In this document: one piece after another, positions 34,592-60,276 of the stretch | Numbering within the stretch: the stretch's first letter is position 1 | Layout: each line of letters begins with the position of its first letter | From: Phenylobacterium sp. | GTDB taxonomy: Bacteria; Pseudomonadota; Alphaproteobacteria; Caulobacterales; Caulobacteraceae | Reading direction: 5' to 3' | DNA: 64,000 nucleotides | NCBI GenBank assembly: GCA_018001015.1 | Contig: JAGNIV010000002.1 | Span: forward strand, 248,001 to 312,000 | The notes under the pieces: generated by a model | Told to the model about the DNA's origin: nothing | Database searches by the model: none | The model's input: only the letters and a program-made list of their open reading frames with translations | Made by a program: the position numbers and the translations under genes

Positions 34592-35344
34592 CTAGTTGCT
34601 ATCTCGATTTGGCTGCTGAGGAAGTTGATCCAAGATTTCGTAAACCAGTCTTGCGTCTTCAATTGCCTGGACCGCATCTTCGTCAGAAATCTCTTCTCCG
34701 TGGATAGCCTGACTTGCTATCCTCCAGAATCTATAGAACGCAGGAGCCGCATCGGCCGGGACATCATACTTTAATGATAGGCGATTGCTCCTTGTAGATG
34801 AGCTTGCAATCGGGTTCCTCCTAGCGCGGAGCAATTTTTCCAGGTCCCGGCGTAGGCCGGCTAGTGCATTCCAAGCTTCTCCTGCTCTTAAGCTCTCAAG
34901 AGCCTTGGAAATTGCAGGAGGATCATTGCGCCGCGCTGACAATGGCAAAACATCGAAGTCGGCTTTGCCTCGAGCATCGACCTTCTTCGTAGTTGGAGTT
35001 GCGATTCCGCCCGCGGCTAATTCCACAAGTTGAGCTTCTTCGGTTGGAGGAGCTACGAATGCTCCCAATCGCGCGAGACAACGGTCCACCCGGTGCCTAA
35101 CTTTTGCATCTCGGAGATAAACGTCCGTCGTTACTTGTCCCAATTCGTCCCGCAGATAGCGCGAGATGGTGGCTAGGTCGTCACTCTCCAGCGCGGCATT
35201 GAATGAAGACTCGGTGGAAAGCCGCTGCGATTTCCAAGATTCGAGTAGCGACTTTGTGCCGCCCAAGACTACAGAACCGATGGCTCCCAATAACGCGGGA
35301 GCCACAATGTCCAAAATTCCGCCTATGGCAAAGATAACACTCAA
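34592..35344 (-). CDS. Unknown membrane-anchored protein with HEPN-like C-terminal region
   Basis: 250 residues. The N-terminus (IFAIGGILDIVAPALLGAIG and on, about 4-29) is a glycine-rich hydrophobic segment. Residues 30-140 are polar and unrecognised. Residues 145-240 look helical: ISKALESLRAGEAWNALAGL with RDLEKLLRA, then YRFWRIASQAIHG with Arg208 and His215 spaced R-x6-H. This resembles the pattern of HEPN-family RNases and DUF5677/DUF4145-type domains. The start appears to be TTG at 35344, with AAGGAG two bases before it and a TTGA overlap with its upstream partner. Base composition is clearly lower in G+C than the neighbours (31 of 60 at 34741-34800), which suggests horizontal transfer. 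Function unknown. Confidence 0.7.
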   Translation of the reverse strand: MSVIFAIGGILDIVAPALLGAIGSVVLGGTKSLLESWKSQRLSTESSFNAALESDDLATISRYLRDELGQVTTDVYLRDAKVRHRVDRCLARLGAFVAPPTEEAQLVELAAGGIATPTTKKVDARGKADFDVLPLSARRNDPPAISKALESLRAGEAWNALAGLRRDLEKLLRARRNPIASSSTRSNRLSLKYDVPADAAPAFYRFWRIASQAIHGEEISDEDAVQAIEDARLVYEILDQLPQQPNRDSN

Positions 35345-35817
35345 GGCTCCTTGTCCGCCTCTGACTCAGATTTCTTCAAGAAGGGCCGAAGTTCAATCAT
35401 CTTGGCAAGGAGAACTAATGTGAGTAGGTAATTTCTCTGGATGCGACCCGCAAACCAAAGCGACCCGGCTCCGTACGCGAGAAGAACTCCTGCGCCAACC
35501 AGCGCTATGACTATAAGTTGAGCCGTGCTCGCAGCGCTTGCCGCCTGTTTAGCGACCTCAGTGGTGGTCGCCGTCGTGTTGTCGGTGATTGGTTGACGTA
35601 GAATGCCAGTAGCTACGGCTGCCAGCAGTGCGGTTGCTCCTGCTAGTGACCATTTGCCGATCTCAAGCGCTCTCGCGTGTTCCCACTCGAAGCCCTTTTC
35701 CACTGCCTTGTGTGGATCGTCAGCGTCATTCGCCACAAGGCGGATCAGGTCGCGTATTCTGGTTTGTTGTCTTGAAGCAAAGGCGATCGGGGCTCTCAGG
35801 CGTGCCTCCCAATTCAA
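35341..35817 (-). CDS. Unknown two-helix membrane protein, partner of the HEPN-like protein
   Basis: 158 residues. Membrane segments lie at about 55-73 and 99-121, joined by a Thr/Ala-rich loop (DNTTATTTEVAKQAASAAS). The N-terminal 50 residues are amphipathic and the C-terminus is highly charged (KKSESEADKEP). It overlaps the next gene by four bases and shares its low G+C. An in-frame stop at 35839-35841 leaves TTG at 35817 as the first start, with no ribosome site. A GGGAGG lies six bases before an in-frame CTG a few codons later, so the true start is uncertain and 5' truncation is possible. No family recognised. Confidence 0.65.
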   Translation of the reverse strand: MNWEARLRAPIAFASRQQTRIRDLIRLVANDADDPHKAVEKGFEWEHARALEIGKWSLAGATALLAAVATGILRQPITDNTTATTTEVAKQAASAASTAQLIVIALVGAGVLLAYGAGSLWFAGRIQRNYLLTLVLLAKMIELRPFLKKSESEADKEP

Positions 35818-35832
35818 TTCAAGGCAGAGCTT

Positions 35833-35855
35833 GCAATCTCACATGCTCAGATTGC
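35833..35855. promoter_or_regulatory. Inverted repeat upstream of the minus-strand module
   Basis: GCAATCT at 35833-35839 and AGATTGC at 35849-35855 form a perfect 7-bp dyad with a 9-base centre, 16 bases upstream of the minus-strand start. It could be an operator or a hairpin. Confidence 0.35.
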
Positions 35856-35930
35856 GCGCGCAAGTCATGCTCGGGAGGCGCAAGTGCATGCGCTTGCAGG
35901 CCGCTGTGTGGGCCGGTCTCAACAAGGCCC

Positions 35931-35959
35931 TTGTCATGAGAACAAAACCAGAATAGGAA
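35931..35959 (+). promoter_or_regulatory. Candidate sidA promoter overlapped by the LexA box
   Basis: TTGTCA at 35931-35936 with TAGGAA at 35954-35959 and a 17-base spacer. The -10 region overlaps the LexA box, which fits repression. Confidence 0.4.
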
Positions 35960-35971
35960 CATACGCAGAAC
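35957..35971 (+). promoter_or_regulatory. LexA (SOS) box upstream of sidA
   Basis: GAAC-ATACGCA-GAAC is a perfect GAAC-N7-GAAC, the reverse complement of the alphaproteobacterial LexA operator GTTC-N7-GTTC. It ends 18 bases before the ATG of a 30-codon gene resembling the SOS peptide gene sidA. Confidence 0.85.
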
Positions 35972-35989
35972 ATTCACAAGGGTGACGTT

Positions 35990-36082
35990 ATGGTTGTTCG
36001 TTTGGCGCGGGAATCGCTGGCCTTTGTGGCGGTGTCGGGATTTGTCTGGATGATGTGTCAGGTCGCGCAACTGGCCGCTTGA
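35990..36082 (+). CDS. sidA: SidA-like SOS-induced cell division inhibitor peptide
   Basis: 30 codons: a short basic N-terminus (MVVRLARES), one hydrophobic helix (LAFVAVSGFVWMM) and a short tail ending QLAA. In Caulobacter crescentus SidA is a 29-residue inner-membrane peptide made under LexA control that stops division by acting on FtsW/FtsN. The size, single membrane helix, perfect LexA box at 35957-35971 and position just before dnaE all fit. The start ATG is preceded by AAGGGTGA. The gene is too short for usual gene calling. Assignment rests on these features and memory of the family, not on an alignment. Confidence 0.8.
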   Translation: MVVRLARESLAFVAVSGFVWMMCQVAQLAA

Positions 36083-36109
36083 GGCTGATCTTTTAGAGCG
36101 GAGGACGGT

Positions 36110-39547
<3,438 letters not shown>

Positions 39548-59522: not shown

Positions 59523-60218
59523 CTAGTGGTACTTGCGGATCAGGCCGACGAGGCGGCCCTGCACCTGGACCTGGTCGGGACCGAAGATGCGGGTCTCGTA
59601 GGCGGGGTTGGCGGCCTCCAGGGCGATGGAGGCCCCCTTCTTGCGCAGCCGCTTCAGCGTGGCTTCCTCGCCCATCACCAGGGCCACGACGATCTCGCCG
59701 GAGGTGGCGGTGTCGGTCTTGCGGATCACCACATAGTCGCCGTCCAGGATGCCGGCGTTGATCATCGAGTCGCCCTGGACCTCCAGCGCGTAGTGCTCGC
59801 CGGCGCCCAGCATGCTCTCGGGCACGTGCATGCGGTCCCGTTCCTGCTGGATCGCCTCGATGGGCGTGCCGGCGGCGATCTTGCCCAGGACGGAAATTTC
59901 GCGGGTGTCGTTGGCGGCGTTCATGGCCGGCTGGCCGGCCCCGGCCTCCACCAGCTGTGGCTTGAAGGGCGCGCGGCCCTTGGGGGGCGAGGAGGTGGTG
60001 GCCTGCTGCGGCAGCTTCACCACTTCCAGCGCGCGGGCCCGATGCGGCAGGCGACGCAGGAAGCCGCGTTCCTCCAACGCCGTGATCAGGCGGTGGATGC
60101 CGGACTTGGACGCCAGGTCCAGCGCCTCCTTCATCTCGTCGAAGGAGGGCGAGACGCCGCTCTCCTTGATCCGCTCATGGATGAACATGAGCAATTCGTG
60201 CTGTTTACGAGTGAGCAT
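59523..60218 (-). CDS. lexA: SOS response repressor LexA
   Basis: 231 residues. The N-terminal winged helix (1-about 65, [29 protein letters not shown]) is followed by a linker and a C-terminal S24 peptidase domain. The self-cleavage site Ala116-Gly117 (GKIAAGTPI), nucleophile Ser151 (QGDSMINAG) and base Lys189 (TLKRLRKKG) are all present, so it can be inactivated by RecA. Its own promoter has a LexA box, and another LexA box in the window lies before sidA. Confidence 0.97.
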
Positions 60219-60261: not shown

Positions 60262-60276
60262 GTTCTCTAGGCGTTC
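60262..60276 (-). promoter_or_regulatory. LexA box of lexA (autoregulation)
   Basis: GTTC-TCTAGGC-GTTC (plus strand) matches the alphaproteobacterial LexA operator exactly. It lies 44 bases before the lexA start, between the -35 TTGACA (minus strand, 60290-60285) and a Caulobacter-like -10 CCTAGAGA (60272-60265). Confidence 0.88.

Follow-up and report, generated by a model that had tools for sequence, protein, structure and literature searches.

The closest described counterpart of the locus analysed here is sidA of Caulobacter crescentus, which is CCNA_02004 (PMC11034885). According to the accessible part of PMC4211646, SidA interacts with FtsW and FtsN, is lethal when overproduced, and has its suppressors in ftsW and ftsI. 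In excerpts of a Caulobacter SOS study (PMC12700426), ~97% of SOS promoters carry a single box, and sidA is among the early candidates. In the literature searched, much of it accessible only in part, we found no report of tandem LexA boxes at sidA, of SidA-like peptides outside Caulobacter, of a named SOS division inhibitor in alphaproteobacteria beyond the Caulobacter group, or of damage induction of the replicative dnaE together with sidA. Nor are we aware of any alphaproteobacterial SOS division inhibitor that has been named from elsewhere than that group.

The DNA analysed is a stretch of 64,000 nt (the window), in which a 30-codon ORF lies between LexA boxes and dnaE. Its features, by window position and strand, are as follows.

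35931..35936, +: TTGTCA, putative -35-like element read from the sequence, 9 nt ahead of the first LexA box
35940..35954, +: first LexA box, GAACAAAACCAGAAT, one mismatch; half of a tandem pair found in 117/123 distinct orthologues
35957..35971, +: second LexA box, GAACATACGCAGAAC, perfect; 80/123 orthologues have a perfect box in the 120 nt upstream
35972-35989, +: box-to-sidA spacer, 18 nt
35990..36082, +: sidA, 30 codons plus stop, ATG at 35990, MVVRLARESLAFVAVSGFVWMMCQVAQLAA; NF033228, 60.1 bits, cut-off 35
36083..36109, +: sidA-dnaE gap, 27 nt
36110..39547, +: dnaE, replicative DNA polymerase III alpha subunit, GTG at 36110, 1145 aa; NF004226, 1440 bits
59523..60218, -: ORF of the lexA repressor gene; TIGR00498, 182.7 bits, cut-off 110.95
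60262..60276, -: perfect LexA box upstream of lexA

Identity of the gene upstream of dnaE

A preliminary description of this DNA had proposed a Caulobacter-type sidA gene behind a perfect LexA box and just before dnaE. Its positions proved exact to the base for the box (35957-35971, 18 nt before the ORF) and correct for the ORF (30 codons, 35990-36082, 27 nt before dnaE). The peptide scores 60.1 bits against the NCBIfam equivalog model NF033228 ('cell division inhibitor SidA'; cut-off 35), which among 14 control genomes found matches in Caulobacter vibrioides only; no Pfam match was obtained. Charges among its 30 residues are confined to R4, R7 and E8, and everything from residue 9 onward is uncharged, giving one hydrophobic stretch behind a basic start. 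Alignment with Caulobacter SidA, which the preliminary description had suggested as a check, showed 66% identity between residues 2-30 and the 29-residue SidA of genome G077. This genome served as a stand-in for the studied C. crescentus protein, as its LpxI matches PDB chain 4ggm at 100% identity, which we take to be a C. crescentus protein; its sidA also adjoins dnaE on its upstream side (locus L156). These comparisons identify 35990-36082 as a sidA orthologue in a Phenylobacterium-like Caulobacteraceae genome. The gene is of an already known kind, SidA, and the tandem LexA operator there is an addition to the first reading. The expectation that gene finders would miss sidA is too strong as a general claim, because NCBI has a model for the 29-residue SidA.

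Two overlapping minus-strand ORFs, at 34592-35344 and 35341-35817 (250 and 158 aa), lie between a lolD-like gene and sidA, and neither has a Pfam or NCBIfam match at E ≤ 1.

A conserved tandem LexA operator

A perfect LexA box alone is weak evidence, because perfect GAAC-N7-GAAC occurs 110 times on both strands of the window's genome, versus 45 for the backward word. Peptide identity together with the conserved box position ahead of orthologues is far beyond chance. The 120 nt upstream of 123 distinct orthologues hold a perfect box in 80 cases and a single-mismatch box in the other 43, as against 1 perfect and 7 one-mismatch boxes when the same regions are read in the opposite orientation. The single-box reading given earlier was right about the perfect box and overlooked a further, one-mismatch box at 35940-35954. 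Tandem boxes (each with at most one mismatch, 15-20 bp apart) are present in 117/123 orthologues, whereas 200 shuffles averaged 0.12 such cases and never gave more than 2. The spacing is 17 or 18 bp in 102 of these 117; four of the six orthologues outside this count have two boxes at 25 bp spacing. A genome-wide count of GAAC-N7-GAAY pairs 15-25 bp apart gave two instances in the window's genome, the one at sidA and another whose spacers are G+C-rich.

A TTG[ACT] motif stands at most 14 nt ahead of the first box in 109/117 orthologues; in 60 it is placed at -9, the position seen in the window. The final base of the first box is T instead of C in 78% of orthologues, which may be read as the price of overlapping a -10 element. 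This placement of -35 and -10 elements is drawn from conservation alone, because a sigma-70 consensus scan of 35820-36300 gave no promoter match. G077 has three box-like sites ahead of sidA. Six Caulobacter-genus loci (L153-L157 and L159) show three LexA-box-like sites in a row, the first of them perfect, with GAACATCTTGTGAAC in 6/6. The window's sidA offers a clean orthologue with a tandem operator, to be set against the ~97% of single-box Caulobacter SOS promoters in the excerpts of PMC12700426.

The window also contains lexA, with its own perfect upstream box, ~24 kb from sidA; the TIGR00498 match spans G000:C29:307529-308215, corresponding to 59529-60215 of the window.

Conservation and selection within Caulobacteraceae

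The window peptide matches 183/199 family genomes at E ≤ 1. A total of 133 loci were read, 43 of them reference loci picked by DnaE alone and 90 by a SidA match (30 + 60). The dnaE gene was present in 132/133 loci and a SidA-like ORF lay upstream in all 132; for the DnaE-picked loci the count was 43/43. Over 123 distinct loci, SidA scores were at least 48 versus at most 28 for reverse-strand ORFs, and the sidA stop codon and the aligned start of DnaE were at most 60 nt apart in 110/123 (median 30, range ~10 to 253 nt). The 16 family genomes without a peptide match include four in which no dnaE start was found and one in which it was cut by a contig end. Among the remaining 11, eight have a diverged SidA-like ORF before dnaE, one of which (L175) scores only 39 and has no box, and three with a readable dnaE start (G016, G017, G031) have no SidA-like ORF before dnaE. 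G022 contains a second, weaker SidA-like ORF away from dnaE, MTRLIRETLAFAAAATFVWAVCVGALVVGDLFRSLPA (L147, 962-1075, minus strand; 28.5 bits, below the cut-off).

The synonymous share of codon differences was 0.42 for the window's nearest 7 ORFs and 0.62 for 23 Phenylobacterium-type ORFs (expected from random point changes, 0.26-0.27), and the synonymous sites of sidA are mostly no more conserved than those of dnaE. Because of this synonymous excess, and because synonymous sites are free to drift, the alignments indicate that the sidA ORF is translated and that its amino acids are the conserved part.

Linkage of sidA to dnaE

The earlier remark that no terminator precedes dnaE agrees with our scan, in which nothing convincing was seen; the one weak pattern match was a 5-pair stem at 36072-36087, where 0.4 would be expected in shuffles. 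A conserved dnaE promoter hidden within sidA was considered and rejected, because the identical-codon share per column is mostly no higher than in dnaE columns with the same residue and gives no hint of constraint on the DNA itself; alignment columns 12 and 29, with a high share, are exceptions to this general pattern. Damage-induced read-through from sidA into dnaE is plausible, because there is no convincing terminator, little promoter room in 27 nt, and no conserved promoter inside sidA. The linkage makes it directly testable whether replicative polymerase is supplied from the transcription unit that also encodes the division checkpoint.

SidA-like peptides upstream of dnaE outside Caulobacteraceae

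Across the order, NF033228 matched 46/249 genomes at E ≤ 0.01 (29 above the cut-off). Because these matches stayed in its own family, except for a weak 8-residue match in G205, sidA seemed to be family-only until the region upstream of dnaE was surveyed. A perfect box precedes dnaE in 15 of 37 reference loci from beyond the Caulobacteraceae set, and in each of these a short ORF encoding a hydrophobic stretch follows the box; 13 of the 15 are Devosia-type (for example, MLTFIKDFAAFVTLGAFTIGSLTWMDVLTRLV). The survey covered 600 nt upstream of dnaE in 115 genomes, comprising 15 from the order's other families and 100 from the class. DnaE matches were obtained in 259/289 class genomes, and the 100 were hand-chosen among the matches listed in order of DnaE similarity, so that nearer relatives are over-represented. 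Perfect GAAC-N7-GAAC was found in 17/100 class genomes, spread over 10 families, and in 5/15 genomes of the order's other families (22/115 in all), compared with an average of 1.05 for the 22 other rearranged words; GTTC-N7-GTTC gives 7.

At 21 of the 22 box-bearing survey loci, a hydrophobic stretch is encoded by an ATG ORF of 24-50 codons that starts 25-65 nt past the box, compared with 1.4% at random positions in 93 box-less loci and 0.5% on the reverse strand, the ORF criteria having been fixed after a first look at the ORF listing. At the 22nd locus (L205), the start codon of the peptide is GTG or TTG. The gap to dnaE reaches about 300 nt in these genomes. Across 115 box-less loci (93 survey, 22 reference), a peptide above the control maximum was seen in five only (L080, L073, L297, L070 and L208), and 91/115 survey genomes have no SidA-like gene before dnaE. 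Many of the outside peptides, though not all, begin with a hydrophobic residue followed by [KR][DE]xx[AG][LFG], where SidA has R-E-S-L-A-F. The usual arrangement is a single box with a TTGACA-like element before it and the nearest AT-rich hexamer after it (TTGAC...GAACAAAACNNGAACAT), and paired boxes are also present in 4/5 box-bearing loci from the order's other families. These ORFs likewise show a synonymous excess (Devosia, 0.58 versus 0.26; f8, 0.66 versus 0.27; f14, 0.51 versus 0.23). The Devosia peptide had no match in a comparison with plasmids.

A separate observation is that GTTC-N7-GTTC lies 66-94 nt ahead of aligned DnaE residue 9 at L198, L240, L245, L247 and L266, loci that belong to G580, G434, G589, G458 and G539 and have no GAAC-type box; such sites perhaps put dnaE directly, or else a divergent gene, under SOS control.

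Probable kinship of the outside peptides with SidA

Profile comparison of 13 SidA with 21 outside peptides gave 93.2% (E 2.9e-7) over 24 columns. With a model built from 32 outside peptides, 77/95 SidA peptides scored higher than any of 475 shuffles (best, 8.6 bits), and the best score among 364 unrelated hydrophobic small ORFs was 8.5 bits. The reverse test was weak: 21/32 outside peptides scored higher with the SidA model than 95% of the shuffles (threshold, 2.1 bits), a single one of the 640 shuffles, at 15.4 bits, exceeded every outside peptide, and an unrelated ORF reached 11.9. Pairwise identities of 13-37% to the first row show how strongly the outside peptides diverge. Since 0/21 had a match in NCBIfam (or in Pfam) at E ≤ 0.1, the SidA model included, they are not filed as SidA equivalogs.

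A blind search was performed on 385 whole class genomes with a model of 25 rows (19 outside, 6 SidA), ignoring boxes and neighbours. It returned 46 genomes at E ≤ 0.1, with 30 places given with a locus, 19 in SidA's own family or in genomes already used and 11 new. At eight of the 11 new places the match immediately precedes dnaE in the same orientation, in each case with a perfect box 32-79 nt ahead of a start codon; five are in seed families and three (G790, G724, G620) in families absent from the model. At two of the other three new places, in G481 and G579, no fitting ORF was found. In G661, a SidA-like peptide, MQIWLKDTLALVSLFALTWMGMAWIAVLDLT, is encoded away from dnaE (L327, from base 1492, plus strand), 41 nt downstream of a one-mismatch LexA box, and is possibly a moved copy.

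On these results, SidA appears to belong, as one of several branches, to a broader and uncatalogued family of alphaproteobacterial peptides. That family is probably older, with SidA as its Caulobacteraceae branch, because the unit of LexA box, one-helix peptide and dnaE recurs in a number of other alphaproteobacterial families. Since SidA is a division inhibitor, the outside peptides would by analogy act as division inhibitors too, and the peptides before dnaE provide a ready candidate list of alphaproteobacterial SOS division inhibitors.

Proposed mechanism and alternative explanations

In the mechanism that we propose, LexA would keep the sidA promoter shut from the two boxes seen in the operator, one apparently lying between the -35-like and -10 elements and the other just downstream. 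As in C. crescentus, DNA damage would lead to cleavage of LexA and production of the 30-residue one-helix membrane peptide, which would keep the FtsW/FtsI/FtsN complex inactive until repair is finished, as shown in that species. Transcription would probably continue into dnaE 27 nt later. The window's genome encodes lexA and two FtsW/RodA proteins. We are highly confident in this explanation as a whole, namely a sidA orthologue, two-box LexA repression and a damage-released division block, with probable run-on into dnaE and probable descent from an older family. A broader proposal, which we favour with some reserve, is that an old family of SOS-controlled one-helix division inhibitors sits upstream of dnaE in many alphaproteobacterial families, without a Pfam or NCBIfam entry outside Caulobacteraceae and with SidA as its best-known branch; that the linkage lets one LexA promoter raise both the division block and the replicative polymerase; and that Caulobacterales added the second box for tighter repression.

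Perfect boxes are fairly frequent genome-wide (110), and a chance ORF might have come to lie beside a chance box; the probability of this is negligible given the G077 identity, the SidA model score, the 132/133 loci, the conserved tandem boxes and the synonymous excess, which together rule it out. It is also conceivable that the ORF is mainly a cis leader, whose translation tunes dnaE expression and whose membrane peptide is incidental. In favour of this, its position just before dnaE persists inside and outside the family, but translational coupling is unlikely because the gap is too variable (~10-253 nt in the family, to about 300 nt outside). Moreover, conservation is seen at the amino acid level and drift at synonymous sites, SidA supplied in trans blocks C. 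crescentus division (accessible part of PMC4211646), and the G661 peptide sits away from dnaE with a one-mismatch box of its own, making a leader role very improbable.

A function like that of other known SOS peptides was also considered. According to the accessible part of PMC3567139, E. coli has small hydrophobic one-helix SOS peptides of the TisB/DinQ kind, and the window peptide, or at least its strongly divergent relatives outside Caulobacteraceae (13-37% identity to the first row), could be such a membrane-damaging peptide rather than a divisome inhibitor. We consider this improbable, as the window peptide falls in the SidA equivalog model and the outside peptides align to SidA at the profile level. 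That the outside peptides are unrelated to SidA, one-helix peptides having arisen independently behind an old SOS promoter at dnaE, is unlikely but deserves to be taken seriously: hydrophobic helices resemble one another, the SidA model lifts only 21/32 outside peptides over the 95th shuffle percentile, and one of the 640 shuffles outscored every real one. Common descent is favoured over such independent origins by the profile comparison (93%, E 2.9e-7), by the 77/95 SidA peptides that outscore all 475 shuffles with the outside model, and by the blind search, which reaches dnaE in 8/11 new places, three of them in families not in the model.

Comparison with known systems

The window gene resembles C. 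crescentus sidA (CCNA_02004; NF033228) in length, single helix, LexA box and equivalog score. Compared with the G077 SidA it has one extra N-terminal residue at 66% identity, and the box pattern differs in detail, G077 having three box-like sites. To our knowledge, no shared origin with SidA is known for YneA of Bacillus, SosA of Staphylococcus or ChiZ of Mycobacterium. Like SidA, these are small SOS- or damage-induced membrane proteins that target FtsW or its complex, as described in the accessible sections of PMC13396833, where low-confidence models predict SidA on the other side of FtsW TM7. DidA of C. crescentus is, like SidA, a small one-helix damage-induced division inhibitor; unlike SidA, it has 71 residues, is not LexA-controlled and binds FtsN (PMC4211646, in the part accessible). 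With regard to the linkage, the available parts of PMC1839093 and PMC6120978 describe SOS control of a DnaE-type polymerase in the imuA-imuB-dnaE2 operon, as proposed here for sidA-dnaE; dnaE2 is an error-prone second copy, whereas the neighbour of sidA is the replicative dnaE.
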